From a virus, in the IMG/VR virus record IMGVR_UViG_3300020214_000876, positions 1 through 25,206 of that record: 25,206 bases of DNA; one strand, 5' to 3'. The notes under the pieces were generated by a model that saw only the letters and a program-made list of their open reading frames with translations, did no database searches and was not told where the DNA came from. The translations under genes and the position numbers were made by a program. This document shows, one piece after another, positions 3,362-25,133 of this stretch (positions are counted from its first letter, which is position 1; each line of letters opens with the position of its first letter).

Positions 3362-3897
3362 TGCATGAGTCACAGACAAACTTTCTGATTAGAATGAAAG
3401 ATAAATTTCCTAACTCATTTAAAGAATGTAAAGTTCTTGAAGTTGGTAGTTTGGATATAAATGGAACTATTCGTATTTTATTTGAAAATTGTGAGTATAC
3501 TGGAATCGATGTAGGACCAGGTCCATGTGTAGATGTTGTTAGTAGCGGACATGTGTACGATGCTCCAGATAATTCGTTTGATACAGTTGTTTCATCAGAG
3601 TGTTTTGAACATAACCCATTTTGGTTAGAAACATTTAACAACATGCATAGAATGTGTAAACCAGGTGGTGTTGTTATATTTACATGCGCCACAGATGGTC
3701 GACCTGAACATGGAACTAATAGAACTCAAGCGTGGGCTTCTAGACTAACAGTTGAAATCGGTTGGGGTGATTATTATAGAAACTTAAATGCTATAGATTT
3801 TGAGAATGCATTTGATTTAACGAAAATGTTTGAACCGCATGAGTTCTTTTTAGAATTAGTTTCGAAAGATTTATATTTTTATGGAGTAAAAAAATAA
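3361..3897 (+). CDS. Class I SAM-dependent methyltransferase
   Basis: A compact 178-residue Rossmann methyltransferase. SAM-binding motif I is VLEVGSLD (residues 25-32). The acidic end of strand 2 is YTGID (D50), and the post-motif segment NSFDTVVSSECFEH (71-84) is typical of the Methyltransf_11 group, followed by MHRMCKPGGVVIFTC. No extra domain is present to indicate a substrate. Its place directly after three glycosyltransferase-like genes, with TAATG junctions on both sides, suggests methylation of a sugar or of the same acceptor, as in capsule or O-antigen loci. A nucleic acid or protein target cannot be excluded. Confidence 0.88.
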   Translation: MHESQTNFLIRMKDKFPNSFKECKVLEVGSLDINGTIRILFENCEYTGIDVGPGPCVDVVSSGHVYDAPDNSFDTVVSSECFEHNPFWLETFNNMHRMCKPGGVVIFTCATDGRPEHGTNRTQAWASRLTVEIGWGDYYRNLNAIDFENAFDLTKMFEPHEFFLELVSKDLYFYGVKK

Positions 3898-4094
3898 TGG
3901 CAAATAGATCAGATTTTTTTGACGCTAAACTTCCGCGCTCTATTAAGCGCATGCTTATTATGGGTCAGGTCAATGGCTGGACTGGCGATAAGCATTCTCG
4001 TAATGCAATAAAGAATCAGTTTATCAAAGCACATGCTAATCATGTTGGGTTTAAACTCAAACGCCAATCAGCAGAAATTGGTGGCGAAGAGTAA
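3897..4094 (+). CDS. Small conserved phage hypothetical protein
   Basis: 65 residues, strongly basic (RSIKRMLIMG, KHSRNAIKNQFIKAH) with no membrane segment. It is coupled to both neighbours by one-base TAATG overlaps, which supports it being a real gene. From memory, short proteins of this kind recur next to the polymerase region in cyanophage-like T4 relatives, without known function. A nucleic acid-binding role would fit the charge but is speculation. Confidence 0.72.
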   Translation: MANRSDFFDAKLPRSIKRMLIMGQVNGWTGDKHSRNAIKNQFIKAHANHVGFKLKRQSAEIGGEE

Positions 4095-4348
4095 TGCACT
4101 CATTAACAGAACTCCGCGATTTCTTTATCTCTAAAAAGATTGAGATAAATGAATTTAATGGGTGGGCATTAAAAGTTGGTAGAGATGTTTGGACTTTGAG
4201 CGGTGATGTGTTTTATAAAAATGGCATACCGCAAAGTCTAAAGCAAAAAGATATTTTTAACAGTTATACAAGGGTAAAAACAAATGGCAAACATCAAAGC
4301 AATCAAACTCGTAAATGGCGAGGAATTAGTAGTAGAAATTACAGATGA
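4094..4348 (+). CDS. Small hypothetical protein, C-terminus overlaps next gene
   Basis: 84 residues. The first 60 or so look like an ordinary small folded protein (NGWALKVGRDVWTLSGDVFYKNGIP, an alternating strand pattern). The last 22 codons (4284-4348) lie in the start of the next gene in another frame and give a basic, low-complexity tail (RKWRGISSRNYR). The start is joined to the previous stop as TAATG. Function unknown. The body is probably conserved and the tail is a by-product of the overlap. Confidence 0.65.
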   Translation: MHSLTELRDFFISKKIEINEFNGWALKVGRDVWTLSGDVFYKNGIPQSLKQKDIFNSYTRVKTNGKHQSNQTRKWRGISSRNYR

Positions 4349-4583
4349 CAATGAGTCATCAATAACATTTACAAATCCAGTTTCTTGCGTTCTTCAACGT
4401 GGCAAAGATGGCGCACCAATTCTAGGTTTTATGCCCTGGATGCAATCAAGCAATCCTCCGTTTACTGTGAACAAAAATAATATTCTTGTCGTCGCAGAAG
4501 TTGCTGAAGAGATTAAAAACGGTTATAATCAAATATATGGAGCAGGTATCGTTGTTCCTCCCAAGCAATTAATTACGGGATAG
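4284..4583 (+). CDS. Conserved phage protein, possibly Sm-like beta-barrel
   Basis: 99 residues. It has a strand-rich N-terminus (IKAIKLVNGEELVVEI) in which a lysine-leucine-valine strand is followed by NGEE, then a conserved-looking block GAPILGFMPWMQ. The pattern resembles small Sm/LSm-like barrels (VNGEEI.AEV...), seen from memory in several T4-like marine phages, but I cannot confirm the fold. AGGG at 4271-4274 is a reasonable ribosome site nine bases before the ATG. The gene starts 65 nt inside the previous gene and stops one base before the DNA polymerase ATG, so it may be translationally linked to polymerase. An RNA-binding or translational control role is only an idea. Confidence 0.75.
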   Translation: MANIKAIKLVNGEELVVEITDDNESSITFTNPVSCVLQRGKDGAPILGFMPWMQSSNPPFTVNKNNILVVAEVAEEIKNGYNQIYGAGIVVPPKQLITG

Positions 4584-7164: not shown

Positions 7165-8196
7165 ATGAGTTTATTAGATAAACTAAAGAAAAATTCTACA
7201 ATCAAAGACACAGCAATTCTTTCTCGTTCGATTTTTTTCGAAGAAAAAGATATGGTTCAAACCAGCATTCCTGCTGTAAACATTGCTCTTTCTGGTGCTC
7301 TTGATGGTGGATTTACTCCTGGTCTTACAATGTGGGCTGGTCCAAGCAAACACTTCAAGACTGCCTTTAGTTTGATCATGGCTAAAGCATATCAGGATAA
7401 GTACCCTGAAGCAGTAATCCTTTTTTACGACTCTGAGTTCGGCACTCCACAGTCATATTTTCAAAACTTTGGTATTGATAAGGATCGCGTGGTTCATACT
7501 CCAGTTACAGACGTTGAACAATTAAAGTTCGACATCATGAATCAATTAACAAATATTGAACGTGGTGATCGTGTGATGCTTTTAATTGATTCTATCGGTA
7601 ATCTTGCTTCGAAGAAAGAAGTTGAAGATGCGATTGAACAAAAGTCTGTTGGTGATATGACTCGCGCCAAACAAATTAAATCACTGTTTCGCATGGTGAC
7701 ACCACACCTTACGTTAAAAGATATCCCGATGGTGGTCGTTAATCACACTTATATGGAAATTGGTATGTTTCCGAAAGCGATTGTCGGTGGCGGTACAGGA
7801 TCTTATTATTCTGCTGATAATATTTTTATCCTCGGTCGTCAGCAAGAAAAAGATGGTAGCGAATTAGTTGGATATTCTTACATTATTAATGTAGAGAAGT
7901 CTCGTTATGTTCGCGAGAAGTCAAAGATTCCAGTTACTGTTAAATTTGATGGCGGTATTTCTCGCTATAGCGGATTGCTCGACATGGCGCTCGAATCAGG
8001 TCATGTAACGAAACCTTCTAATGGTTGGTACTCTCGTGTAAATACAGAGACAGGTGAAGTAGAGACAAAGAAATGGCGTCTTGCTGATACTGATGTTCCT
8101 GAGTTTTGGAATAGTATTCTAGAAAATGATACATTTAAAGATTGGATCCGAGAAAATTATTCATTCGGTTCTGTTGTAGAATCTACAGAGGAATAA
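7165..8196 (+). CDS. uvsX: UvsX RecA-like recombinase
   Basis: ATP-dependent strand-exchange protein of the RecA/UvsX family, which in T4 drives recombination-dependent replication and repair. It has 343 residues (T4 UvsX 391). Walker A is GPSKHFKT (residues 59-66, K65/T66), the UvsX-type GPSKxFKS/T form rather than the GPESSGKT of bacterial RecA. Walker B ends at D142 (RVMLLIDSIGN). A later segment, VVVNHTYMEIGMFPKAIVGGGTGSYYSAD, matches the DNA-binding loop 2 region of UvsX. The gene has its own ribosome site and a candidate promoter (7110-7138), then is followed after 6 nt by a small gene and the gp41 helicase, the standard replication-recombination neighbourhood. Confidence 0.95.
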   Translation: MSLLDKLKKNSTIKDTAILSRSIFFEEKDMVQTSIPAVNIALSGALDGGFTPGLTMWAGPSKHFKTAFSLIMAKAYQDKYPEAVILFYDSEFGTPQSYFQNFGIDKDRVVHTPVTDVEQLKFDIMNQLTNIERGDRVMLLIDSIGNLASKKEVEDAIEQKSVGDMTRAKQIKSLFRMVTPHLTLKDIPMVVVNHTYMEIGMFPKAIVGGGTGSYYSADNIFILGRQQEKDGSELVGYSYIINVEKSRYVREKSKIPVTVKFDGGISRYSGLLDMALESGHVTKPSNGWYSRVNTETGEVETKKWRLADTDVPEFWNSILENDTFKDWIRENYSFGSVVESTEE

Positions 8197-9907: not shown

Positions 9908-10536
9908 AACTAGAAAAAATACAAAAAAATGTGAATAAACTAATTCCGACATGGATCGGAGAGAAACATATTCCCTCTTTGATTCGTAATTTAAATAAAC
10001 TCTTTAAAAAATCAATCGTATCTTTTTGTTCTGATAGATTCGAAGGCGAATACTATGCGAATCATTCTGTCATTATTTCGGGTCATTATTGCCCAAGAAT
10101 ACTCCCAGTAATTCCTGAAAATATATTGATCACTCTTTCTTTTCCAAAGAATCAAAAGAAAGCCATTATAACTCAAGAAGGTGCAGACAATTTAGCAATT
10201 AAGATTATTCGCGCCATTCATCACGAGTATCGCCACAAGCATCAACAAAAAGGTCGTGGGTATGTAAATACAAAACAATATCATACCAAGAAAGGTGAAC
10301 GCAATAGATTAAAATTGCATTATTATGGCAATCCTGATGAATTAGACGCTCATGCATACGAAACACAGGCTGAGAAACTAGATATAAATAAATTACGAAA
10401 GGCACATAGAATTGGATGGAAAGAATCAGAAGCCATCTTTATGTATCGTCTGCACTTTCGAAAAAGTGATCCCAGAATTTGGAAACGGTTCTTAAAGAAA
10501 GTATACAAAAATGCAAAACATATCGGGACAAACTAA
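9904..10536 (+). CDS. HExxH-motif protein, predicted zinc metallopeptidase-like
   Basis: 210 residues, very basic. A helix-like segment NLAIKIIRAIHHEYRHKHQ carries H107-E108-x-x-H111, the zinc-binding signature of gluzincin-type peptidases. Downstream, NPDELDAHAYE offers E146 and E153 as a third ligand; the spacing of about 40 residues and the PDElDAhA wording recall small phage and bacterial HExxH proteins of unknown substrate. No signal peptide is present, so it should act in the cytoplasm. It starts within the helicase stop (ATGA) and its 3' end overlaps the following gene by 26 nt. An exact late-type box, TATAAATA, lies inside it at 10383-10390. Enzymatic activity is inferred from the motif only. 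Confidence 0.72.
   Translation: MKLEKIQKNVNKLIPTWIGEKHIPSLIRNLNKLFKKSIVSFCSDRFEGEYYANHSVIISGHYCPRILPVIPENILITLSFPKNQKKAIITQEGADNLAIKIIRAIHHEYRHKHQQKGRGYVNTKQYHTKKGERNRLKLHYYGNPDELDAHAYETQAEKLDINKLRKAHRIGWKESEAIFMYRLHFRKSDPRIWKRFLKKVYKNAKHIGTN
10383..10390 (+). promoter_or_regulatory. Possible T4-type late promoter box inside a gene
   Basis: An exact TATAAATA, the T4 late promoter sequence recognised by gp55-RNA polymerase with gp33/gp45. It lies 120 bases upstream of ATG 10511 and within the HExxH gene, so it could give extra late expression of the downstream genes. In such AT-rich coding sequence one exact match is not strong evidence. Confidence 0.25.
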
Positions 10537-11425
10537 CGAACGAAATTTGGTGAATGCAATTAAAAAGTATGCACCATTTGAGATTACATTGAGCGGCAAA
10601 AAATATAAAATTACAAGCGCACGACAATTAGGTGGTAGAAATCCAGAACCAAAAGCCGACATTGCTCTTATCACAAAAGATAAAACTGAAATTGGAATCA
10701 GTATGAAGAAACCAAATTTCGGATTCTTCGAAAGTTGGATGAATGAAGAAAAAACATATAAAATGCTTGTGTCAGTTGGAATGGAACCAAAACAAGCAAA
10801 AGAAATTGTTAAAGGCTTAAAAGATAAAGCGGCAGAAATGTCTCAATCTCGTGCATTTAAGAATGAAGTGATGAATGAATACAATGCTATGATTGAATTG
10901 GTGGGTAAGGGTAGCAAAATTGATTCGATTGCCAGAAAAAATAATAAGTTTGTTGTTGAAAACTTTAGTGTCACAGGAGAAGTCAAGAGTGATATTGTAA
11001 ATAAGTTACTTAAAGATAAACAAAAAAGATTTGGAACGGCATCGATCTCATCTTCATTTAAAGTAGAAAATATATACATACCTTTGAATGAGTTGCTTGG
11101 TAGAAATTATGAGAAATTTTTGCAAAATGTTATTGGTGGTGGAATCGATAATCCAGTCAAAGCTGAATATGTAATTGTTGGCACTATTAGTTCAGTAATT
11201 AAAGAAAAAGATTTAATTTCATTACTTCAGAGCGCCAAAACAATAAAAGAGGTTGTGAAAGAGTATTCAAATGATCCTAATGTAAATTTAAAATTTAGAT
11301 TAAGACCTATTACTGCAACTCGAGCAGCATATTCTACTACGAATGCTGGTAAGTATAGAAAGGGTGCAGAGTTCTATTTCGACGAAAAAATTGGAGTGAG
11401 TTGGACTGTTCATGTAGCGAATTGA
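10511..11425 (+). CDS. Phage protein, probable PD-(D/E)XK nuclease fold
   Basis: 304 residues. The N-terminal part shows the order expected for a PD-(D/E)XK nuclease: a helix with an acidic residue (E10, NERNLVNAIKKY), then a strand with D50 (PEPKADIALI), then a strand ending in S64-M-K66-K67 (IGISMKKP), where Ser stands in the usual Glu/Asp position, as in phage families with an SLK motif. The remaining 230 residues are mixed helix and strand with no motif I recognise, ending in KIGVSWTVHVAN. It starts 26 nt inside the preceding gene and is followed after 7 nt by rmlB. It could cleave DNA or act in recombination; the fold assignment is inferred from sparse motifs. Confidence 0.6.
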   Translation: MQNISGQTNERNLVNAIKKYAPFEITLSGKKYKITSARQLGGRNPEPKADIALITKDKTEIGISMKKPNFGFFESWMNEEKTYKMLVSVGMEPKQAKEIVKGLKDKAAEMSQSRAFKNEVMNEYNAMIELVGKGSKIDSIARKNNKFVVENFSVTGEVKSDIVNKLLKDKQKRFGTASISSSFKVENIYIPLNELLGRNYEKFLQNVIGGGIDNPVKAEYVIVGTISSVIKEKDLISLLQSAKTIKEVVKEYSNDPNVNLKFRLRPITATRAAYSTTNAGKYRKGAEFYFDEKIGVSWTVHVAN

Positions 11426-11432
11426 GGTTTTT

Positions 11433-12380
11433 ATGACTACATTTGTGACTGGTGGTTTGGGATTTATCGGATCTAATTTTGTATTCGCCCACTTAAAAAA
11501 ATATCCCGCTGATACTGTCGTTATCATCGACAATTATTCATACGCTGCTGATGAAAAGAATATCTATGGTCTTTTTGAAGATTATAGAGTCATTGTCAAG
11601 CGTTGCGACATTCGAAATCTTGTTTTACTCGATCAACTTTATCATGACTATGAACCAGAAATTACTTTTCATTTTGCGGCTGAGTCTCATGTTGACAATT
11701 CTATTGCTGGTGACGATCACTTCCTCAGCACTAATATTAATGGCACTCACAACATTCTAAAGTGTATTCGCAAACATAACGGCAAATTAGTTCATGTTTC
11801 GACTGACGAAGTTTATGGATCACTCTCTCATGATGATCCACCTTTTACCGAAAAAACTCCATACGATCCACGCAATCCATACTCTGCATCTAAAGCAGCG
11901 AGTGATCATCTTGTTCGTGCCTATGTGAATACACATGGCATTGATGCAGTCGTAACTAATTGTTCGAATAACTACGGTCCTCGACAGCATAAAGAAAAAT
12001 TTATTCCAACCATAATTCGAAATATTCAAATGAATACACCAGTTCCAGTATATGGAAATGGTCAAAATATTCGCGACTGGTTGTTTGTTGAAGATCATTG
12101 TGATGCATTGTTAACAATTGGTGAAAACTTTAAATCGGGTGAGCGTTATAATATTGGTGGCGGTCATGAGATGAGTAATCTTGATATGGTTACTTTGATT
12201 CTTGACATTATAGGAAAACCAGTTCATATGTATCAAAACTGGATTAATTTTGTAACAGACCGTAAAGGTCATGATTTTAGATACGCAATGAATTCGTCAA
12301 AACTTGAACGAGAACTCGGATGGAAAGCAAAAACTAACATCACAGAGGGACTTCGTAAAACATTGGAGTGGTACAAATGA
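11433..12380 (+). CDS. rmlB: dTDP-glucose 4,6-dehydratase (RmlB-like)
   Basis: Extended short-chain dehydrogenase that converts dTDP-glucose to dTDP-4-keto-6-deoxyglucose with bound NAD. The N-terminal dinucleotide motif is GGLGFIG (residues 7-13). The dehydratase signature STDEVYG contains T124-D125-E126, and the catalytic Tyr/Lys pair is Y150 and K154 (NPYSASKAASDH). Further family blocks are NCSNNYGPRQHKEKFIP and GNGQNIRDWLFVEDHC, typical of RmlB. At 315 residues it is slightly short, but all active-site elements are present. GAGG at 11424-11427 serves as ribosome site. The gene is joined to rmlA by an ATGA overlap, so the two successive steps of the pathway are made together. Confidence 0.94.
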   Translation: MTTFVTGGLGFIGSNFVFAHLKKYPADTVVIIDNYSYAADEKNIYGLFEDYRVIVKRCDIRNLVLLDQLYHDYEPEITFHFAAESHVDNSIAGDDHFLSTNINGTHNILKCIRKHNGKLVHVSTDEVYGSLSHDDPPFTEKTPYDPRNPYSASKAASDHLVRAYVNTHGIDAVVTNCSNNYGPRQHKEKFIPTIIRNIQMNTPVPVYGNGQNIRDWLFVEDHCDALLTIGENFKSGERYNIGGGHEMSNLDMVTLILDIIGKPVHMYQNWINFVTDRKGHDFRYAMNSSKLERELGWKAKTNITEGLRKTLEWYK

Positions 12381-13252
12381 GAAAAGGAATTATATTATCT
12401 GGTGGATTAGGTACACGTTTATATCCATGCACTGAGGTTATATCTAAACAATTGCTTCCTGTTTATGATAAGCCTCTCGTCTATTATCCATTATCTACAC
12501 TAATGATGGCTAGTATTCGTGACATTATGATTATTAATTCTCCGAATGACAGCGATCAGTTTCAGAGATTATTGGGGAATGGTTCACAGTATGGATTAAA
12601 CATTACATATTCTGTACAACATGAACCGAAAGGTATCGCTGAGTGTTTTCGTATCGCAGATAAATGGATTGGCAAGAGTGATGTTGCGTTAATTCTTGGC
12701 GATAACATTTTTTATGGTAACGATTTAATTAATCGATTTAATTATGCAAACTGGAATAGAAATGGATGCACGCTCTTCGCGTATCATGTAAATGATCCTG
12801 AGCGTTTCGGTGTCATTGAATTCGATAAAAATAATGATCCTATTGATGTTCATGAAAAGCCTGTAAATCCGCCAAGCAATTATGCAGTAACTGGTTTATA
12901 TTTTTATGATAATAAAGTTGTCGATTATTCGTATGCGATCAAACCTTCTGCTCGTGGTGAATTAGAAATTACTGATATTAATAAAATGTTTATTAAAAAT
13001 AGTGATTGCAAAATTGAGTTTTTAAATCGTGGTGTTGCTTGGATTGATACAGGCACATTCGATTCACTTTCTGAAGCGTCAATATTCGTTGGATCAGTTC
13101 AGCGGAGAACTGGTACGATGATTGCATGCCCAGAAGAAATTGCTTACAAGAATGCTTGGATTACAAAAAATCAAGTTGAGGTGCAAGCAAGTAAATATGC
13201 TAAGTCGGATTATGGTAAGTATTTGTCAAGAATTTTACAAACGAGGATATAA
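12377..13252 (+). CDS. rmlA: Glucose-1-phosphate thymidylyltransferase (RmlA-like)
   Basis: Makes dTDP-glucose from glucose-1-phosphate and dTTP, the entry step of dTDP-deoxysugar synthesis. The signature is GGLGTRLYP (residues 9-17), followed by SKQLLPVYDKPLVYYPL, QHEPKGIAECF and LILGDNIFYG with the metal-binding Asp; NRGVAWIDTGTFDSL is also typical. Its 291 residues equal the usual family length when starting at ATG 12377, preceded by GGAG at 12365-12368. A GTG at 12368 would add three residues but lies upstream of the good spacing. The start overlaps the rmlB stop (ATGA). In a T4-like phage using host glucose-1-phosphate, this would divert dTTP to sugar activation. Confidence 0.94.
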   Translation: MRKGIILSGGLGTRLYPCTEVISKQLLPVYDKPLVYYPLSTLMMASIRDIMIINSPNDSDQFQRLLGNGSQYGLNITYSVQHEPKGIAECFRIADKWIGKSDVALILGDNIFYGNDLINRFNYANWNRNGCTLFAYHVNDPERFGVIEFDKNNDPIDVHEKPVNPPSNYAVTGLYFYDNKVVDYSYAIKPSARGELEITDINKMFIKNSDCKIEFLNRGVAWIDTGTFDSLSEASIFVGSVQRRTGTMIACPEEIAYKNAWITKNQVEVQASKYAKSDYGKYLSRILQTRI

Positions 13253-13254
13253 TT

Positions 13255-14058
13255 ATGCATTTTCTAGTAGTTGGTCGAGGTTGGACAGGTAAAAAGGTAT
13301 TCAACGAACTTCTTAGTCGTGGGAATGTGGTTACTTTCTCCTCTCATGAGGAAGCGATTACAACGATTGAGGACAATTCGTTCGATTGGGTTGTGAACTG
13401 CGCTGGTAAAACAGGATTCCCGAATGTTGATGCATGTGAACAAGACAAGAGGGGTACTGTCGAGGCGAATGCTGTTTTCCCAGCATTGTTAGCGGATGCA
13501 TGTGAGAAAAAAATCTCTACTCGCCTAGCGCATTTCTCCAGTGGGTGCATTTATATGGGCGATATTCACGATGTAAATGCAGCACCAAACTATTTTGGTA
13601 GCATTTATTCCGTATCAAAGGGTGTATCAGATCTATACTTGGGCGACAAAGCACAGGTTTATCGCATTCGTATGCCATTTACTGGGATTAATGAGTCTAA
13701 AAATTATCTCACAAAGGTCTATAACTATGCTCGAAACGGTAAGTTAATCGACGCTGGTGAGAACTCATTAACAGACTTAAACGAGGCAGTAACTGTTGCC
13801 TGTAACCTTATGGAAGACGGCGAACCAAATGGATATTATAATCTTGTAAATAAAGGTTCGGTGAATATGCACGAACTTGCTGAGATTATGGGTATTCAAC
13901 CGCAATGGTTTACGCCAGAAGAGTTTAAGGCTGCAACTGCCGCTGGACGTTCTACCTGCACCATTCCTGCATATGAAGGTATGTCGAATGTTAAGGACGC
14001 TCTATCGGACGCTATTCGTAACATGGATTGGCAAAGATACGCAATCGCAAACGAATAA
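13255..14058 (+). CDS. NAD(P)-dependent reductase/epimerase, RmlD-like
   Basis: 267-residue extended short-chain dehydrogenase. The N-terminus FLVVGRGWTGKKVFNEL is a Rossmann glycine motif in variant form (GRGWTGK). WVVNCAGKTGFPNVDACE and the later NAVFPALLADAC match the RmlD/epimerase layout. FSSGCIYMG provides the catalytic Ser region and Y118-SVS-K122 the Tyr/Lys pair. In the dTDP-rhamnose pathway RmlD reduces the 4-keto group after RmlC epimerises C3 and C5. No rmlC is seen here, so this enzyme may reduce the unepimerised 4-keto-6-deoxyglucose, giving a D-fucose- or quinovose-type product, unless host RmlC or a gene outside the window helps. It follows rmlA by 2 nt and has GAGG at 13243-13246. 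Confidence 0.82.
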   Translation: MHFLVVGRGWTGKKVFNELLSRGNVVTFSSHEEAITTIEDNSFDWVVNCAGKTGFPNVDACEQDKRGTVEANAVFPALLADACEKKISTRLAHFSSGCIYMGDIHDVNAAPNYFGSIYSVSKGVSDLYLGDKAQVYRIRMPFTGINESKNYLTKVYNYARNGKLIDAGENSLTDLNEAVTVACNLMEDGEPNGYYNLVNKGSVNMHELAEIMGIQPQWFTPEEFKAATAAGRSTCTIPAYEGMSNVKDALSDAIRNMDWQRYAIANE

Positions 14059-14098: not shown

Positions 14099-15232
14099 AT
14101 GTTTGGGTTCAAACAATTTGTTCCGTTAACGGAACAAAAGCAAAAGAAAGTCGTTCGCGGAATACAGCACCTACCCCATCCTGCTGAATCAGCATTCGCG
14201 TCTAGGCGTGGTGCGATTGGATCAGCTCTCTCCAAAATCTCCAGCGTTGTAAGCGGACGCGCTCCTGTAACTAAAAAAGTTGATGATAGCATGTCCTTTC
14301 AAGTCGATGAGAAAGGTGGCGTAAAATATAAAGGTCCAGGTGCAAAATATAACTATTCAGTAGAAGATATTAAAAGGCAATATGCAAATAAACCATATAT
14401 TGCTCAAAAACTTATTGCTATCTTTAATCATATCGGCAAAGTTCTTCCAAAAGGTCGTGGCGAGTATCAGGGTGGATATCTAAGTTCTGATAATGAGCGC
14501 GAAGAAAAAGATGGTAAAATTAGTCATAGACCAAATACGATTCGCTATTCAGTAGATCGAAACTCTCCTGAGGGAAAAAGAATTGCACGATCTCGTGTAA
14601 GTATAGTTCTTCACTCTCGAATTCTTAAAAACGGAAGCACAACACCAATCGGTGAAGGTGAGTTAGAAGAACATCCTGATGTACATGTAATGAGTCATAT
14701 AGTCTCTGCCAGAGAAAGAAATCTTTCTCCGAAAGAAAAAACAAGAATTGCGCAGCAAATTTCTTCTGCTAGAAAACTCGGAAAAAATCATTCATATGAA
14801 CATTTAGATGGGCATAATGAAACTCTTCTTCGATATGCGAATTCCTCTGTTGATACGAATGAGCGACTCTCTGCCAAAGGATATAAGCGATTTCTTCAAA
14901 GATATCATCAAAAAAGAATTGATTCAGTAAAAACAGAAAAAGCGAAAGCACAAAAGAATGCAGAGATGCAAGCTGCACTCGATCATGTTGATAGAAATGA
15001 AGATAATTTTAATAAAACATTTAACATTTATCGTAATATTCAACAAGCGACCTACACTGTAGCGAATTCGTTATCTCGCAGCGCGAGTGGTGGATACGAT
15101 CATGATATTGATGGACAAGAATCTAGCGGAGAGGGATTCGTTTCTGGCAATATGAAGTTCGTTCCGAGAGCATTTACACAAGCCAATCGTCGTCGTTCGG
15201 CGGTACTCAAGGCTCAGAAGAGTGTAATATGA
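14099..15232 (+). CDS. DUF6267-like phage protein, possible internal head protein
   Basis: 377 residues. RGIQHLPHPAESAF, SGRAPVTKKVDDSMSF and HRPNTIRYSVDRNSPEGKRIARSRVSIVLHS follow, from memory, the DUF6267 family common in T4-like marine phages, where the segment after PVT often reads KxDG as in nucleotidyltransferase/ligase folds. Here it is K-V-D-D, so ligase chemistry is doubtful. The first residues, MFGFKQFVPLTEQ, resemble a T4 capsid targeting peptide, with L10-T-E12 as a possible maturation protease site. The C-terminus is basic with RRRSAVLKAQK. The gene has GGAG at 14090-14093, a late-like box at 14063, and an ATGA overlap with the next gene. The function is not known. Confidence 0.75.
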   Translation: MFGFKQFVPLTEQKQKKVVRGIQHLPHPAESAFASRRGAIGSALSKISSVVSGRAPVTKKVDDSMSFQVDEKGGVKYKGPGAKYNYSVEDIKRQYANKPYIAQKLIAIFNHIGKVLPKGRGEYQGGYLSSDNEREEKDGKISHRPNTIRYSVDRNSPEGKRIARSRVSIVLHSRILKNGSTTPIGEGELEEHPDVHVMSHIVSARERNLSPKEKTRIAQQISSARKLGKNHSYEHLDGHNETLLRYANSSVDTNERLSAKGYKRFLQRYHQKRIDSVKTEKAKAQKNAEMQAALDHVDRNEDNFNKTFNIYRNIQQATYTVANSLSRSASGGYDHDIDGQESSGEGFVSGNMKFVPRAFTQANRRRSAVLKAQKSVI

Positions 15233-17826
15233 GTAAAGCAACATTTACATTCGGAAGATTCAATGTTCCAACTGAAAATGGGCATGGAAAACTTATCTCG
15301 AGAGTTCAAGCACATGCTGAAGAATCTGGTGGTTCTCACTATATCTTCCCATCTCACTCTCAAGATAACAAGAAAAATCCATTGAGTCATGGTGAGAAAG
15401 TCGGCTTTATGCGTCGTTTATTCCCGAGTGCAAATATTGTTTCCTCTGGTAGAGTGCGAACAGCAATTGATGCGATGAAGCATTTAGAAAAGAAAGGACA
15501 TACTCATGTAACTATGGTTGTCGGTTCTGATCGTGTCTCAGAATTTAGCTCTCTTCTAAATAAATATAGAAAAAAAGAGTTTCCAGGAATTAAAAAAGTT
15601 AGTGTTGTTTCCGCAGGGCAACGAGATCCAGATGCAGAGGGCGCCGAAGGCGAATCAGCATCAAAACATCGAGCAATGATCACTAATGGACAACGCAATA
15701 AGTTTATTTCAAAATACAGTGATCGTAAATTAGGTGCTGCTATACATGATGCGGCAAAAAAAGGTATGCAAATGGAATACACAAACCCAATCGGAATTTT
15801 TCTACTCGGTGGTCCAGGAAGCGGAAAAGATTATGTTCTTACGAACATTTTTTCTCGCTTTAATTTGACTGAAGTTCAATTAGATCAAGTGCTTAATGGA
15901 AAAATACAAGAGTTAATTGAGTTAAATCAGAACATCGTGATAAATGGTGCTGCAGACATTGAAAAAGTGGAACTTGTCAAGAACATTCTTGAGGGATATA
16001 CATTCGATACAGTATATGTTTCTGTGTCAAATAAAATTAGTCGTGCGCGTAATCAAGAAAGAGAAAATCCATTACCAGAAAATAAGCGTTTAGAAAAATG
16101 GTATCGCGCTGAGAAACTTGCAGAGGAACTTGATTGTTTTATATTTAATAATTCAATTAATCTTTCTGAATCGAGTCAAATGGAGCAAATTGTATTCGGC
16201 AGTCAAATTGAAAAATTACTTGAACGCCTTACATCAAATGGATTGCTTTTATCTGAGAAAACATTTAAATCAGTTCCGATGGACAAAGATTCAGGCTTAC
16301 CTAAAAAATATGTCTCTGGATTAAGTACGTCAACAGCATTAGCACGTAAAGCACATTGGAAAAGGAAATCAAAACTCTCAGATAGTGATCCAAGAGCATA
16401 CGAACCAGCTCCTGGTGATGCAAATGCTAAAACAAAACCAAGTAGGCACACACTTGCTGTTCGTAAGATGATGGATGAATCAGAACAGATTGATGAGGGT
16501 GGACCAGGTTTATGGGCAAACATTCATGCCAAAAGACAAAGAATTAAACGTGGTTCTGGTGAAAGAATGCGTAAGGTGGGCGATAAGGGTGCGCCAACAC
16601 CAGAACAGTTGAAGTCTGCTAAAAATGAAGAAATACAAGAGTTTGATGAGGCACAAAAGAAACTTCGTCCATCGCGCTGGAGAGCAGAGTGGCGTTTAGG
16701 CACACAATCTGAAGTTGACAAAAATAACAAAAAGATTTATGATCGCCTTGCAAAAACTGATCCAGATAAAGCCAAAGCATTCCACGATAATCTCATGAAA
16801 CTTCGTAAAGAAGAACTCGATCAAATTGATGATATAAATTCTTTATTTGAAATGCAATTAGCTGGCACTGATGAATATCGTAAACATGCGATTGCCATGA
16901 CGCCAGGACAAGGAGAGATTGGTAATGTTAATAAGTCTAATAAATCTAATAAAAATGAAGAACATAAGGACTGCGGAACAACAGATTGTTGCGGAGAATG
17001 TGAGTCGGTTGGAGAAGCAGTTAGAGAAGATTCTGAATCGATCATCGACGCGACGCCGACGCTCGATACAGAAACAAAAAAGCGAAAAAGATCACAAATA
17101 GTTCCACCAAATTCTCGTGACATTGCAAAAGATGGTCCCGCAGTTATTACAACAGGCGCTTATGTTCGCGAAGCAGCGAAACCTCTTAAATCGTTTATGA
17201 AAACACCACGCCAACTTCCTGGTCCTCCTGGAGGACATTCAGTTCCTCCAGGATATGAGCGCGTGAAGTCTTGGGGTGGTGCTTATGAACTTCGTAAGAT
17301 TAAAGAAAAACCAACCACTGTAAAAGAAGCAGTAGAATATCATATCGAAAATCAAGTTTCGTTTACAGATAATATCTTTCGTCCAGGATCTGATATGTTT
17401 TTTAAAATAATTGAGGAAGCGAAAAAACTCTACGCAGAGGGCAAGTACACACCCGCTGATGAGTATGAACAAGACATGCTTAACTCGAACATCGGCGAAA
17501 AAGCAACTTACAACGATCAGGAAGTAATTCTCGATTATCCATTCGAAGAAGAACTAAACGAAGCTGATGATCCAACAGATGGCAAAGGTATCGGTAAACC
17601 ATTTCGCTCTGGCGGTGGTGGTGCAGTTTATGTTCGTGTTGGAGATGGCGTGCGCAAAATCAACTTCAGTCAATCTGGTATGCAGAAAAAGTATATGGAC
17701 CCAGGTGCAACTCGTAGTTTTGTCGCTCGTCATCATTGTTTAACGAATAAAGATAAGACGAGCGCATCCTATTGGGCATGCCGTTGGCCAAGATTTTTTA
17801 GCAATTCGGGTAAAATATGGTGGTAA
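15229..17826 (+). CDS. Multi-module fusion: nucleotidylyltransferase-like + P-loop kinase-like + internal-protein modules
   Basis: 865 residues. Residues 1-185 form a cytidylyltransferase/NMNAT-like domain: FGRFNVPTENGHGKLI stands for the T/HxGH motif, with one residue more than the usual PTxGH spacing, and SASKHR for the C-terminal ISxTxxR motif. Residues 190-330 are a P-loop domain with GGPGSGKD (194-201), like phage nucleotide kinases. The rest is a chain of small modules: a basic stretch after EQIDE423; a charged segment after FDE474; a Cys-rich patch (C582, C587, C588, C591); a VKEAVEYHIENQVSF module; and after LNE778 a final module GKPFRSGGGG...RSFVARHHC...SASYWACRW. Several module borders carry I/L-x-E motifs like those cut by T4 prohead protease gp21. 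It may be processed and packaged in the head; substrates are unknown. Confidence 0.78.
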   Translation: MSKATFTFGRFNVPTENGHGKLISRVQAHAEESGGSHYIFPSHSQDNKKNPLSHGEKVGFMRRLFPSANIVSSGRVRTAIDAMKHLEKKGHTHVTMVVGSDRVSEFSSLLNKYRKKEFPGIKKVSVVSAGQRDPDAEGAEGESASKHRAMITNGQRNKFISKYSDRKLGAAIHDAAKKGMQMEYTNPIGIFLLGGPGSGKDYVLTNIFSRFNLTEVQLDQVLNGKIQELIELNQNIVINGAADIEKVELVKNILEGYTFDTVYVSVSNKISRARNQERENPLPENKRLEKWYRAEKLAEELDCFIFNNSINLSESSQMEQIVFGSQIEKLLERLTSNGLLLSEKTFKSVPMDKDSGLPKKYVSGLSTSTALARKAHWKRKSKLSDSDPRAYEPAPGDANAKTKPSRHTLAVRKMMDESEQIDEGGPGLWANIHAKRQRIKRGSGERMRKVGDKGAPTPEQLKSAKNEEIQEFDEAQKKLRPSRWRAEWRLGTQSEVDKNNKKIYDRLAKTDPDKAKAFHDNLMKLRKEELDQIDDINSLFEMQLAGTDEYRKHAIAMTPGQGEIGNVNKSNKSNKNEEHKDCGTTDCCGECESVGEAVREDSESIIDATPTLDTETKKRKRSQIVPPNSRDIAKDGPAVITTGAYVREAAKPLKSFMKTPRQLPGPPGGHSVPPGYERVKSWGGAYELRKIKEKPTTVKEAVEYHIENQVSFTDNIFRPGSDMFFKIIEEAKKLYAEGKYTPADEYEQDMLNSNIGEKATYNDQEVILDYPFEEELNEADDPTDGKGIGKPFRSGGGGAVYVRVGDGVRKINFSQSGMQKKYMDPGATRSFVARHHCLTNKDKTSASYWACRWPRFFSNSGKIWW
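16930..16956 (+). repeat. Short in-frame 9-base tandem repeat
   Basis: Three near-identical 9-base units (AATAAGTCT, AATAAATCT, AATAAAAAT) encode Asn-Lys-Ser, Asn-Lys-Ser, Asn-Lys-Asn in the linker before the Cys-rich patch of the fusion protein. The look is that of replication slippage in a flexible linker. Confidence 0.6.
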
Positions 17827-18108: not shown

Positions 18109-20670
18109 ATGGCAGAGGTAAAGATTCCATCAAAATTGCATTTGATGTCGCCATCATTTCAAAAGAAATGGTACAAAAAACACGGTATGGAAATGCCAAC
18201 TGCATCAAAAGAGAAAGAGCCAGAGGGTAAATCAGCTGCTGCAGCAAAACGTATAAAAGTTGCGTCAAGAAAAAATGTTAATGTTAAGCCAAATTCTGTT
18301 CGTGCGATTAATGTTGCTCGTCAAAAAGCCTATATGGATAAAGGTGGACGTCCGCCAATCGGAGCAATGGGTTCTGATGGTAGCAATGTAATGGCTGGTG
18401 CTGGTCAATCTACGATTAGAGATTTAAGAGCCAGCATTAAAGCAGGATTTAATCCAAAAGTTTCTCTCGATCCATATCAATCAAAAAGAGCAAAGAAAAC
18501 AAAAAATGAATCTGTTGATGAAGCAGCGAAACCAGATGCTTCAATGGCGATGACGAATCAATTAAAAATGAAAATGATCTCTGATAAAGATAAGAGAACA
18601 CTTGGTAAGGTTGCTGTGCTTATGGCACGTGAACGCGCACTTACTGCTCAAAGAAACAAAGATAAAAAGAATGCATATGTTCGTGGACTAGGATTAAATG
18701 CAATGAGGGCTGGTAATGTAGATCCAGCAAGAGGTCATAGTCCAACTCGTTTTGGTCGCGAAGTGTTGGCAAAAGAAGAAGTCGAGCAGATTGATGAGAA
18801 AATTAATCTCGTCAAAGCCAAAATGGGCGATGTTATCAAAGACTTCCAAAAATCTGATGCTCCACAATTCAAGGGTAAGTCAGCAGAAGAACGTCGTAAG
18901 ATGGCGCTTGCTGCTAAACTCGGCGCAGAAAGAGAAGCAGGAATGCGCGAAGAAGTCGAGCAGATTGATGAACTTTCTCCAAAAACTGCACAAAGTTATC
19001 TTGACAAACGTCCGCATCCAAAAGTTTCAGATATTGCTCGTCCTGATGGTATGACAAGAGACCAAGCTGTAAATAGAATAATTAGTCGTGCACGTGCAAA
19101 AAGAATAATTAGGGTTGCAAACTTAAAACAAAATCCAAGCCCACCTCCTAAATCAACTGAAGTAGATGATAACCCATACGGATATGGGCAAGGTCGGTAT
19201 ATGGGAGACAATGTAAACCTAGAGGGTCAAACGATGAATGAAGTTACAAAAAAAGAAGCCGAAGAAATACTCGGCGGTCCAGTCAAAAACAAACCAAAGG
19301 GTCCAGCAGGTAAACATCCTCTTGGTTATAGACTTGCAAGAAGTGCTGCTCGTAAAGCAATGAACAATATGCAAGCATCGATGAAGAAAGAAGAGGTCGA
19401 GCAGATTGATGAATCAGGTGAAACATCTTTGAAACTATCTCAATTAGCAAAACAAAAAGCAACTGACTTAGAAAGATATCCATCAAAAGATGGAAGCCTT
19501 GGAAAACTCAGAAAAAATCCAGATAAACAAAAAATAAGAAGATTGCGCGATTTGGCAAACAAAGCATACGCAAGATCAAGAAATCCTACTGGTGCGCCAA
19601 CTGGTAATATCGAAGGTGGTGGGCATAAAAGTCTTCGTCGACAAGGAGCCACTGATAAAGATATTCCACCAAACCCAATGAACATGAGCAAATTAATGGG
19701 ATATTTTAAAGAAGAAGTCGAGCAGGTGGATGAGGCTGGCAAGGGATATGGTCCAGGTTGGATGCTAAAACATCCAGATGGTAAAACTCTTGATGCTAAA
19801 TTAAAAGCAAAAAAAGAACTCGAAAGAAAACGACAAAAATCATACGGCGATCCGAAAGCTGGTGTCTCTGTTAAATCAGAAGAAGTCGAGCAGGTGGATG
19901 AAGTGACTGGATATGAGGGAGTAAAAAATCGCACAGATATAATTAAAAGAGCAGCCGCAATGAATAGAATGGGCAAACAAACATTTCTTGATAGAGTAAA
20001 GACACGTGCTGCTGAAATACGAAAAGAAAAGGCAAAAAAGAAACTTGCAAATGAAGAAGTCGAGCAGATTGATGAACTCAAGAAGTCTACACTTGCTTCT
20101 TATGTTAAGAGAGCAACACGCGATGTAGCATCAGCAAGTCGACTTCAAAGAGGTTATGAAACGGATGCAGCCAGAAAAGGTGATGCAGCAAATTATGTTG
20201 CAAGGGGTAGTGATTTAGCAGCAAAAACAATGAGAAAATTTGCTGGTAAAAGATCTAGAGGCATTGCAAAGGCTGTTGATAAATTAGCAAAAGAAGAAGT
20301 CGAGCAGATTGAAGAAGGTAAAGCAGATACATCACTTGCTGCAAAGGCACAAAAGTCTGGTATTTCATTGGGAACACTTAAATCAGTATTTCGTCGTGGA
20401 GTTGCTGCATGGAATTCAGGACATCGTCCAGGAACAACTCCATCACAATGGGGTCATGCTCGTGTAAATTCTTACATCAACAAGGGTAAGACTTATCACA
20501 CCGCAGATAAAGATCTACGCGAAGAAAAAGCCAAAGGTAAAGATCCAGAAACATCAACCGAAGTTGAACTCGCCAAGAAGCATGGTGATCCAAAAAAGAT
20601 CACATACGGTGATGTTATCAAAGCGCGTATCGAAGCATCTAAAAAGAAAGCATTAAATAAGGGCGAGTAA
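18109..20670 (+). CDS. Modular internal-protein polyprotein candidate with seven EEVEQ[IV][DE]E linkers
   Basis: 853 residues, very basic between acidic linkers. Seven copies of EEVEQ(I/V)(D/E)E end at residues 230, 288, 435, 542, 598, 656 and 736, dividing the protein into pieces of about 230, 58, 147, 107, 56, 58, 80 and 117 residues. The I-D-E/I-E-E (or V-D-E) endings fit the T4 gp21 prohead protease rule I/L-x-E. Pieces I recognise from other marine T4-like phages as separate or differently joined modules include INLVKAKMGDVIKDFQKSDA (231-288), GKGYGPGWMLK (543-598), LKKSTLASYVKRA (657-736) and the C-terminal SGHRPGTTPSQWGHARVNSYI domain (DUF5824-like). No enzyme motif is visible. It probably supplies several small DNA-binding or scaffold-core proteins to the head; cleavage is inferred. 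Confidence 0.8.
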   Translation: MAEVKIPSKLHLMSPSFQKKWYKKHGMEMPTASKEKEPEGKSAAAAKRIKVASRKNVNVKPNSVRAINVARQKAYMDKGGRPPIGAMGSDGSNVMAGAGQSTIRDLRASIKAGFNPKVSLDPYQSKRAKKTKNESVDEAAKPDASMAMTNQLKMKMISDKDKRTLGKVAVLMARERALTAQRNKDKKNAYVRGLGLNAMRAGNVDPARGHSPTRFGREVLAKEEVEQIDEKINLVKAKMGDVIKDFQKSDAPQFKGKSAEERRKMALAAKLGAEREAGMREEVEQIDELSPKTAQSYLDKRPHPKVSDIARPDGMTRDQAVNRIISRARAKRIIRVANLKQNPSPPPKSTEVDDNPYGYGQGRYMGDNVNLEGQTMNEVTKKEAEEILGGPVKNKPKGPAGKHPLGYRLARSAARKAMNNMQASMKKEEVEQIDESGETSLKLSQLAKQKATDLERYPSKDGSLGKLRKNPDKQKIRRLRDLANKAYARSRNPTGAPTGNIEGGGHKSLRRQGATDKDIPPNPMNMSKLMGYFKEEVEQVDEAGKGYGPGWMLKHPDGKTLDAKLKAKKELERKRQKSYGDPKAGVSVKSEEVEQVDEVTGYEGVKNRTDIIKRAAAMNRMGKQTFLDRVKTRAAEIRKEKAKKKLANEEVEQIDELKKSTLASYVKRATRDVASASRLQRGYETDAARKGDAANYVARGSDLAAKTMRKFAGKRSRGIAKAVDKLAKEEVEQIEEGKADTSLAAKAQKSGISLGTLKSVFRRGVAAWNSGHRPGTTPSQWGHARVNSYINKGKTYHTADKDLREEKAKGKDPETSTEVELAKKHGDPKKITYGDVIKARIEASKKKALNKGE
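18775..20316 (+). repeat. Seven dispersed 24-base direct repeats encoding EEVEQ[IV][DE]E
   Basis: Copies at 18775-18798, 18949-18972, 19390-19413, 19711-19734, 19879-19902, 20053-20076 and 20293-20316. The core AGAAGTCGAGCAG is identical in six copies; the third has a single A-to-G change (AGAGGTCGAGCAG). The last bases vary between ATTGATGA, GTGGATGA and ATTGAAGA. All are in frame with unequal spacing (58 to 147 codons), so this is a coding repeat, not a CRISPR. The fixed use of the GTC, GAG and CAG codons is unlike the A/T-ending codons favoured around them. Confidence 0.9.
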
Positions 20671-20671
20671 T

Positions 20672-21097
20672 ATGGCAGAGAAAGATTCAGGCGAATACGA
20701 TTACGAAGGCGACATGGCAATGTCGCAACTTAAAAGTATTATTACAAACGCCAAAAAACTGCATGATATGTTAGAACCGAATGCGAACTTACCCGAGTGG
20801 GTTCAAAGCAAAATTACTCTTGCCGAAGACTACGTTGTAACTGCAGCAAATTATATGGAGAGTGAAATGAATGAAGAAATGAAACCATACGTGAAAGCAG
20901 TGCAGCAAAAGTTTGACGCTCAAGCAAAAGCGCAGAAAATGGGCAAGAAACAGGCAGGAACATTATCTGCAAAGAAAGAACGTGAACAAGAAAAAGGTGC
21001 AGCCATTGCTCAGAAAACGATTGATATTGTCAAGGGCAAAAAAAATAAAATTAATGTAAAGCCAGAATTAGCAGGTGAGAAAGATGCAAACCTTTAA
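20672..21097 (+). CDS. Conserved marine T4-like phage module protein (YEGDMAxSQL family)
   Basis: 141 residues. SGEYDYEGDMAMSQLKSI, then LEPNANLPEWVQSKITLAEDYV and YMESEMNEE are strongly patterned and I recognise them from many T4-like marine phages, where this helical module is sometimes free-standing and sometimes fused inside long internal-protein genes like the one before it. The last 55 residues are lysine- and glutamine-rich (AKAQKMGKKQAGTLSAKKERE) and likely disordered. Function unknown; its neighbours suggest a head-internal or assembly role. It begins one base after the polyprotein stop and overlaps the next gene by 14 nt. Confidence 0.8.
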   Translation: MAEKDSGEYDYEGDMAMSQLKSIITNAKKLHDMLEPNANLPEWVQSKITLAEDYVVTAANYMESEMNEEMKPYVKAVQQKFDAQAKAQKMGKKQAGTLSAKKEREQEKGAAIAQKTIDIVKGKKNKINVKPELAGEKDANL

Positions 21098-21542
21098 TGA
21101 GTTTTTAAACGAAGCATTTGATGAGACTATTCAAATTGATTCTCGCTATCTAGAAGAGAATATGAATACAATCAATAATGAACTTGATGCATTGACGGAA
21201 AAACCATATCAAAATGCGCCGATCTTTTTAAATCAACTTCGCGGTGTTACAGAGAAATATGGTTTTCCATTACCACAATCTGCAACGAATAATTTTCTTG
21301 ATTTAGGCGCTGAACTAGTTTATATGTTAGGCGAGTCGCCATATCATCTTTATGTGGTTTACGACACCAGCGATGACGGACTTGTTGATGGCTATGCACA
21401 AATCGTTACTAATGAAGAGTTAGAAGATTTATTGAATATGGATTCGGATGAACTCCTCGGAGATCGCGATCCAATGCCAATTCGTCACAGCGATAACTAT
21501 CGTAAACGCGATGATGATGCGGGCAACACTGATGAATATTAA
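21084..21542 (+). CDS. Putative internal head protein with T4-type capsid targeting sequence
   Basis: 152 residues from ATG 21084; a GTG at 21075 would add three residues but would spoil the N-terminal motif. The start MQTFNEFLNE-A matches position by position the T4 internal protein III targeting peptide MKTYQEFIAE-A, which directs proteins into the prohead core and is removed by gp21 after I/L-x-E. The predicted cut here is after L8-N9-E10. The mature part has an acidic helical body (NNELDALTE, LEDLLNMDSDELLGDRD) and a strand pair PYHLYVVYDTSDDGLVDGYAQIV; no known domain is recognised. AGGTGAG lies just upstream as ribosome site. The gene overlaps the previous one by 14 nt. Confidence 0.78.
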   Translation: MQTFNEFLNEAFDETIQIDSRYLEENMNTINNELDALTEKPYQNAPIFLNQLRGVTEKYGFPLPQSATNNFLDLGAELVYMLGESPYHLYVVYDTSDDGLVDGYAQIVTNEELEDLLNMDSDELLGDRDPMPIRHSDNYRKRDDDAGNTDEY

Positions 21543-23978: not shown

Positions 23979-25133
23979 ATGAGCCTTAAATCATTACAGC
24001 AAAAGATTGGTATTGCTGCCGATGGTGCTTGGGGTCCAGGCACTTTTAAAGCGGCGATGGCGTATTATAAACTCTCGCCTGTTCGAGCTGCTCATTTCTT
24101 CGCACAAACTGCACATGAGTCAGGTGGATTTAAAGCGTTTAGCGAGAATTTAAACTATGCAGCAAAAGGTCTTCGCGGTATTTTTGGAAAATATTTTGCA
24201 ACAGATGCATTAGCAGCACAATATGAACGACAACCAGAAAAAATTGCGAATCGAGTTTACGCATCACGCATGGGCAATGGTGATGAGAAAAGCGGAGATG
24301 GTTGGAGATATCGTGGTCGCGGCGCACTTCAGTTAACTGGAAAAGATAATTACAAAGCCTTTGCCGATTACTGTAAACGACCAGATGTAATGAGCAATCC
24401 AGACATTGTTGCATCTGAACTTGCGTTTGAATCTGCAATGTTTTTCTTCGAGCGAAACAAACTTTGGAACATTTGCGATCAAGGAGTAACTGACGCTGCC
24501 ATTCTTTCTCTTACCAAAAAAATTAATGGTGGGACTCATGGTCTTGCTGATCGCTCAGAAAAAACAAAAAAATATATTAGTTGGGCAACATCAGCAACAC
24601 CAGCTGCAGCACCAGCGGCAGTTGTTAAATCTGCTGCTCCTGCGCTTACAGTAACATCAGATATGCAGTTATCTGAACATTTTAAATTAAACGAGTTTAC
24701 AAAGTCTGAAACTGCGATTCGTAAGCGTATTGATAACACCCCAGGTCCAGATCATGCTCAAAATCTTAAAAATGTATGCGAAAAAATTCTTGAACCTGTG
24801 CGGCGTCATTTTAATAAGCCCGTGCGTATTAATTCTGGCTATCGTGGTCCTGCCCTTAATAGTGCTGTTGGTGGTTCTATCAAGTCTCAACATTGCAATG
24901 GTGAGGCGATCGACTTCGAAATCGATGGGCTCCCGAATCCAGATCTTGCCAAGTGGGTTAGTGAGAATTGTGAGTTCGATCAAATCATCTTAGAGTTTTA
25001 TGATCCAAAAGAAGGTCCAAATAGTGGTTGGGTTCACGCTTCTTATACAACAAAGGGACCAAATCGAAAACAAAAACTCACAGCAGTTACAGTGAACGGC
25101 AAAACAGTTTACAAACCTGGTTTCGTAGTTTAA
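23979..25133 (+). CDS. Two-domain endolysin: GH19-type muramidase/chitinase-like plus M15 peptidase
   Basis: 384 residues. The first 25 residues (LQQKIGIAADGAWGPGTFKA) look like part of a peptidoglycan-binding repeat. Residues 30-205 are a GH19 lysozyme/chitinase-like domain, with catalytic-type E47 (FAQTAHESGGF) and E56 (FSENLNY) and the signature YRGRGALQLTGKDNY. An Ala/Pro/Val linker (ATPAAAPAAVV, about 206-222) joins an M15-type LAS peptidase domain: SGYRGPALNSAVGG, then H305-x6-D312 (SQHCNGEAIDFEI) and H353 (WVHAS), the three zinc ligands. It would cut both the glycan and the peptide part of the wall. No signal peptide is seen, so export through a holin is expected. GAGGTG at 23969-23974 is the ribosome site. 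Confidence 0.92.
   Translation: MSLKSLQQKIGIAADGAWGPGTFKAAMAYYKLSPVRAAHFFAQTAHESGGFKAFSENLNYAAKGLRGIFGKYFATDALAAQYERQPEKIANRVYASRMGNGDEKSGDGWRYRGRGALQLTGKDNYKAFADYCKRPDVMSNPDIVASELAFESAMFFFERNKLWNICDQGVTDAAILSLTKKINGGTHGLADRSEKTKKYISWATSATPAAAPAAVVKSAAPALTVTSDMQLSEHFKLNEFTKSETAIRKRIDNTPGPDHAQNLKNVCEKILEPVRRHFNKPVRINSGYRGPALNSAVGGSIKSQHCNGEAIDFEIDGLPNPDLAKWVSENCEFDQIILEFYDPKEGPNSGWVHASYTTKGPNRKQKLTAVTVNGKTVYKPGFVV

Follow-up and report, generated by a model that had tools for sequence, protein, structure and literature searches.

Why should a single phage reading frame be divided by seven short segments that are almost identical as DNA? The window analyzed here, a virus record taken at its full length of 25,206 bases, has a T4-like make-up, with a family B DNA polymerase, a UvsX-like recombinase, and a replicative helicase-like ORF, and a block of modular genes comes after these three. 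The segments in question lie in one gene of this block, encoding an 853-aa product (P0001), whose parts are listed below together with their matches in L128, the contig that is the best full-length relative of the window locus.

18109 to 20670, plus strand: 853-aa modular polyprotein gene (product P0001), with an N-cap, seven linkers, internal modules, a DUF5824 module, and a C-cap.
18109 to 18774, plus strand: N-cap (MAEVKIPSKLHLMSP...), the N-terminus common to orthologous genes at 14 loci at least.
18775 to 18798, plus strand: linker 1, EEVEQIDE.
18799 to 18948, plus strand: module 1 (KINLVKAKMGDV...), with cyanophage relatives (64-81% aa).
18949 to 18972, plus strand: linker 2, EEVEQIDE.
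19390 to 19413, plus strand: linker 3, EEVEQIDE, with GAG at the second codon.
19711 to 19734, plus strand: linker 4, EEVEQVDE.
19879 to 19902, plus strand: linker 5, EEVEQVDE.
19903 to 20052, plus strand: module 5 (VTGYEGVKNR...), 86% DNA match to L128 ORF1.
20053 to 20076, plus strand: linker 6, EEVEQIDE, left breakpoint of the module shared with L128.
20077 to 20292, plus strand: module 6 (LKKSTLASYV...), 97% DNA match to a different gene of L128.
20293 to 20316, plus strand: linker 7, EEVEQIEE, right breakpoint of the module shared with L128.
20317 to 20670, plus strand: module 7 (DUF5824, PF19141) and C-cap (KITYGDVIKAR).

All seven linkers are 24 nt long, in frame, and inside the ORF at 18109-20670, where they encode EEVEQ(I/V)(D/E)E between positions 18775 and 20316. 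Scanning the window confirmed the initial report of six identical copies and a third that is off by one base: GAAGAAGTCGAGCAG is exact in six of the seven linkers, and linker 3 reads GAAGAGGTC (also given as GAAGAGGTCGAGCAG). No further copy with up to two mismatches was found in the 25.2-kb window, and a reversed-pattern control returned zero. Linker aside, the stretches between the linkers have no long mutual DNA similarity, and the only curated family recognized in P0001 is DUF5824, near its C-terminus. The predicted structure of the segment from linker 6 through module 6 and linker 7 to DUF5824 has a mean pLDDT of 65 and is confident (80-89) in the DUF5824 part only.

As an answer, we consider it probable that this gene encodes a shuffled, packaged polyprotein whose linkers serve both as gp21-type cut sites and as recombination seams. 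Small, mostly basic modules would be strung between a conserved N-cap and a conserved C-cap. At the protein level, the linkers would be gp21-type prohead protease sites, (I/L/V)-x-E; the polyprotein would be built into the prohead core and cut into separate basic proteins, which would stay with the DNA and be ejected into the host. At the DNA level, each linker would offer 24 nt of short shared homology, with crossovers in its first ~11-14 nt (GAAGAAGTYGAGCA), and recombination between linkers of one gene, of neighboring genes, or of co-infecting phages would insert, delete, swap, or relocate whole modules in frame, a module traffic that would also keep the linker codons alike. The seam idea is well supported by the exchanges described below, and we infer the packaging and cutting of P0001, the recombination route, and the functions of the modules.

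On the protein side, the linker endings resemble the cleavage site of the T4 prohead protease gp21, which cuts after L/I-x-E (PMC9026906). About 90% of 134 linkers, taken from loci not fetched by motif, end in (I/L/V)-x-E; V-x-E linkers, which are outside the strict T4 consensus, make up roughly a fifth to a quarter (57/275, 32/134). Both gp21 (Peptidase_S77) and gp23 are encoded in 10 of 12 large relative contigs, and the two exceptions are the shortest of the 12, IMG/VR records being possibly fragments. The N-terminal part of gp23 in these relatives carries L-F-E, L-W-E, L-N-E, I-A-E, or L-L-E ahead of the conserved domain, usually followed by A, as candidate sites read off the sequence. A protease-site role of the linker, missed by the initial annotation, is likely on these resemblances. 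Were the linker peptide instead a motif for docking to a scaffold or partner, the modules could be shuffled just as described; the conserved E-E-V-E before the hydrophobic-x-E core, a part that a protease recognizing a bare L/I-x-E does not need, speaks for such a motif. However, even EEVELDE, a linker form shorter by one residue, retains the hydrophobic-x-E ending with both its hydrophobic residue and its final E, and similar sites are present in gp23 of the same genomes, so that we regard a binding role in place of cleavage as unlikely.

Whether the cleaved product would be packaged was considered together with the genes around it and with the recombinase gene of the window:

7165 to 8196, plus strand: UvsX-like recombinase, from its sequence a possible driver of exchange.
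15229 to 17826, plus strand: cytidylyltransferase with further modules (product P0002), homologue of the virion protein T4-GC190 of S-SM1.
20672 to 21097, plus strand: gene for a free-standing EYDYEGDM module with a C-cap; in L128, L011, L101, and others, the polyprotein contains this module.
21084 to 21542, plus strand: ORF with a T4-like capsid-targeting leader, MQTFNEFLNE then A (rule from PMC9026906); a GTG start at 21075 was also called.

The internal modules are strongly basic, with a pI above 9 in 96% of 135 modules vs 35% of control fragments. T4-GC190 is among the proteins of purified S-SM1 virions (PMC3037559); the product of its gene, SSM1_190, starts with MKKFSAFLNE-A and aligns with P0002 at 43% over 184 aa, the gene lies downstream of gp43-uvsX-gp41 in S-SM1, as in the window, and its neighbor SSM1_191 contains an EEVENVEE linker. 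The Melnitz homologue begins with MKKFSEIIEA. P0002 itself contains decayed linkers (16483 EQIDE, 16633 IQEFDE, 16816 LDQIDD, 17551 ELNE) and a weak, sub-threshold zeta-toxin/AAA-like P-loop region (E = 0.004). Capsid-targeting leaders occur in some linker ORFs and in P0002 homologues; P0001 has no obvious one at its N-terminus, and such leaders are not enriched on linker ORFs (5% vs 6% on other ORFs). The position of the polyprotein gene, adjoining replication genes rather than head genes, counts against packaging, and the gene of one cyanophage that carries a module-1 relative within a terminase cluster lends packaging a little weight. Taken at the level of sequence, P0001 would be a packaged polyprotein cut at its linkers.

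On the DNA side, the comparison with L128 locates the edges of exchanged modules. The genes flanking the modular block are 63-77% identical as DNA between the window and L128. Within the block, CDS positions 1945-2198 of the window gene (linker 6 into linker 7) are 97% identical to the second polyprotein gene of L128, and this identity starts at the first base of linker 6 and stops inside linker 7. CDS positions 667-851 (module 1, linker 1 into linker 2) are 88-89% identical to the same L128 gene, in which the module 1 counterpart comes directly behind the module 6 counterpart, that is, in another gene and another order than in the window. The match of module 5 to L128 ORF1 (86% DNA) stops at the linker, the DUF5824 stretch at 20308-20527 is 85% identical to L128 4280-4499, which falls in the region aligning with the window cytidylyltransferase gene, and a P0002 module (16637-16832) is 79% identical to the second polyprotein gene of L128. 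Because these matches fall in different genes, the modules appear, by sequence identity, to move between at least three genes.

Gain and loss of single modules could be followed in other pairs of contigs. L164 and L172 are 96-98% identical on either side of a module found in just one of them, and L085/L021, L227/L214, and L101/L241 have the same pattern, with overlaps of 21-27 nt that correspond to the linker. Read base by base, all four pairs have their crossover within the linker, mostly among its first ~11 nt. When all pairs are pooled, linkers account for 5% of ORF length and for 9 of the 18 indel junctions (~1e-7 by hand, assuming independence), and some of the remaining junctions sit at degenerate linkers, e.g., EDVELDE. 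The ends of HSPs with at least 90% DNA identity are in a linker in 28% of cases vs 3.8% at random; this measure is partly circular, since the linker itself lengthens alignments, and the indels and L128 therefore carry more weight here. Of 134 locus pairs whose linker ORFs share a stretch identical to 88% or more, 112 have flanks below 80%, a flank identity in which overlapping alignments may count twice. Linker ORFs represent 17% of the DNA, yet hold 129 of the 218 short high-identity stretches between diverged contigs. The exact 24-mer occurs in 43 stretches, with 27 left flanks and 26 right flanks, and LKKSTL-type modules are preceded by dozens of different left neighbors. No adjacent linkers less than 15 aa apart were found among 137 neighboring pairs, which is what clean exchange predicts. 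The initial annotation had proposed that the linkers are seams at which modules are inserted, lost, or reordered, and the related contigs bear this out: modules are gained, lost, reordered, and moved between genes, with breakpoints in the linker. Mis-joining of metagenomic contigs at repeats could in principle produce such patterns; 24 nt falls short of the k-mers generally used in assembly, and isolates too carry these modules in differing settings, which bears against misassembly. Isolates with these genes include Pelagibacter phage HTVC008M, Methylophilales phage Melnitz, and Synechococcus phage S-SM1.

The same joins could arise non-homologously, provided that selection retains only those that keep the frame and fall at domain edges, and that the linker owes its conservation to its peptide alone. 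Selection for whole modules would then pile breakpoints at any linker, and the codons of orthologous linkers do change between phages. Nevertheless, the joins are clean, with no tandem linkers among the 137 neighbors, the crossovers fall within the linker in 4/4 of the indels read at base level, and non-homologous joining would predict neither the codon bias nor the within-gene homogenization of the valine codon that we describe next; we therefore judge it quite unlikely.

If the linkers recombine as DNA, their codons should be informative. Window-wide usage of GTC, GAG, and CAG stands at 12.8%, 31.6%, and 22.3%, making all three minority codons, in agreement with the earlier remark that the linkers use them against the prevailing synonymous codons. 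A degenerate search for EEVEQIDE in viral contigs matched at least 120 stretches; the matches listed, together with P0001 relatives, gave a sample of 203 non-redundant linkers from 135 contigs, and a second set comprised 249 linkers with unlike flanks. The Q codon is CAG in 73-75% of ~200-250 linkers drawn from over 130 other viral contigs, vs 37% in the matched context E-Q-[IVL]. In the 203-linker sample, the V codon is GTC in 30% vs 16% in the E-V-E context, and the E4 codon is GAG in 49% vs 33% in the V-E-Q context. Split by contig CAG usage (17% to 47%), all four quartiles have linker CAG at 69-92%, which is high whatever the contig uses; linker codons thus depart from the genome average, in favor of the initial annotation. 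Linker E1 and E2 are almost always GAA, and E-E contexts generally give GAA in 90-92%; GAAGAAGT was accordingly dropped as a sign of DNA-level conservation, GAA GAA being explained by codon context. The evidence lies in GTC, GAG, and CAG, which exceed their contexts, and not in GAA GAA, for which the ordinary context suffices.

With context-matched frequencies, the probability of GTC GAG CAG in one linker is 0.02, and that of seven linkers agreeing on any one triple is ~8e-5 if they are independent. The exact rare-codon linker GAAGAAGTCGAGCAGATTGATGAA is found in 43 stretches, and its counterpart built from the commonest codons in 39, although the context-matched frequencies would favor the latter about thirteen to one by our own arithmetic. 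Two linkers of one ORF have the same V codon at a frequency of 0.71, compared with 0.35 for other valines of the ORF, and in permutations of the 249-linker set this within-ORF sharing is significant for V (p = 0.0005) and E (p = 0.003) and not for Q. The linkers form a common pool with homogenization within genes. Across phages, the linker codons are not frozen: 14 different V-E-Q 9-mers occur. When aligned orthologous linkers were compared with modules, E and Q codon identity was not consistently higher in the linkers, these codons changing about as often in both, and greater synonymous conservation was clear for I and D and, variably, for V. The initial annotation's statement that EQIDE at 16483 uses other codons was only partly right, as this copy reads GAA CAG ATT GAT GAG, in which the E codons differ and CAG ATT GAT is shared.

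Minority codons such as GTC, GAG, and CAG might also reflect other selection at the DNA or RNA level, for instance for slow codons that aid cotranslational folding, a possibility that we hold to be very unlikely: CAG-rich contigs use linker CAG even more (92%), the reverse of what a pause predicts, the E1, E2, I, and D codons of the linker are the common ones, and the module traffic would be left unexplained. Least credible is an integron-like process in which cassettes are moved by an enzyme that cuts the linker DNA, either a site-specific recombinase or an endonuclease of the homing type, since, despite the one short conserved sequence that bounds the cassettes, the linker tolerates many synonymous variants (the 14 different 9-mers) and no such enzyme was found among the window proteins searched. 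For homologous exchange at the linkers, strand invasion by UvsX is no more plausible than annealing or template switching between repeats of 11-24 nt, because T4 lacking UvsX/UvsY keeps substantial recombination, ascribed to single-strand annealing (PMC3016281).

The known relatives of this arrangement are PeSL cassettes, T4 internal proteins, polyvalent proteins, and phage protein mosaicism. PeSLs are intergenic elements made of a promoter and a stem-loop. In the parts of the literature drawn on, these regulatory cassettes, which are mobile in T4-type phages (Arbiol et al. 2010; Comeau et al. 2014; via PMC4503421, PMC3797505), are short and conserved and are credited with the modular shuffling of T4-like genomes as functional elements, and the exchange breakpoints found here likewise coincide with a conserved short sequence; however, PeSLs are described there as promoter-terminator motifs that shuffle genes, whereas the present linkers are coding, lie within one ORF, and shuffle modules in frame. 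The internal proteins of T4 resemble the modules in being basic. They and the prohead core proteins (IPI-IPIII, Alt, gp22, gp67) are cut by gp21 at L/I-x-E, to which most of the candidate sites in the linkers correspond, and the core proteins give several pieces, as P0001 would; gp21 and gp23 are present in the relatives here. The internal proteins are encoded by separate genes with one leader each, whereas here several modules form one fusion in which every two neighbors have a candidate site between them. Polyvalent proteins, known from phages and conjugative elements, contain 2-15 domains and are proposed to be injected together with DNA and, in some cases, processed proteolytically (Iyer et al. 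2017, PMC5512222). They share with the present proteins the multidomain make-up and the proposed injection with DNA, and differ in their enzymatic domains and often their own peptidases, in contrast to small basic modules of mostly unknown fold, one recurring linker, and presumed cutting by gp21. As to the disparate activities typical of polyvalent proteins, P0002 has a cytidylyltransferase and a weak P-loop match, and P0001 has DUF5824 only.

Ongoing exchange of fragments between unrelated phage proteins was reported by Smug et al. 2023 (PMC10684548); in the passages drawn on, that study is agnostic on the genetic process, for which a specific DNA seam is proposed here, and does not feature the present protein class. 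The distal tail fibre gp37/gp38 of T4 (Tetart 1998, cited in PMC3797505) also undergoes domain swaps by modular shuffling between T4-like phages and, as far as described in the citing text, differs in concerning adhesin tips with few modules and no polyprotein array with a repeated linker. Our literature search returned no paper containing EEVEQIDE, nor any with DUF5824/DUF6267/DUF6321, and no description of a protease site and a recombination seam in one coding element was found in the literature searched.

More tentatively, and with confidence falling a little short of even, we suggest that a widespread T4-like system uses one 24-nt coding element as both seam and protease site, every exchange between linkers building in-frame cleavable arrays and a library of ejected proteins. 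If so, the library would be a combinatorial one of proteins for host takeover or DNA binding, and its modules would pass among three or more genes and from phage to phage across different hosts. This would offer a concrete, testable mechanism for the shuffling of phage protein modules, so far mostly described with no mechanism, and would suggest that aquatic T4-like phages encode a large reservoir of uncharacterized proteins, small and probably packaged; relatives of one such module are encoded in 530 contig stretches. The linkers would also be a simple means to segment and annotate such proteins.

Several further observations concern individual loci. In L148, one polyprotein ORF contains several tandem LKKSTL/LSKKTL modules, which suggests amplification of one module type. 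In Synechococcus phage Sf-CH8 (L267), a KINL-type module gene at 3215-4423 lies between the small terminase and virion structural genes, a late head-gene setting. In the window, 14099-15232 encodes a DUF6267 protein (start MFGFKQFVPLTEQ); PHROG 455 hits this protein as well as the cytidylyltransferase domain, which suggests that some phages have the two as a fusion. The 304-aa ORF at 10511-11425 has no Pfam match and contains a stretch, PKADIALITKDKTEIGISMKKP, resembling a PD-(D/E)xK nuclease core. Three consecutive ORFs at 11433-14058, adjoining the replication genes, look dTDP-sugar-like by eye (dehydratase, thymidylyltransferase, reductase-like), and 23979-25133 encodes a putative lysin that joins a GH19 chitinase-like portion to a peptidase M15 portion.
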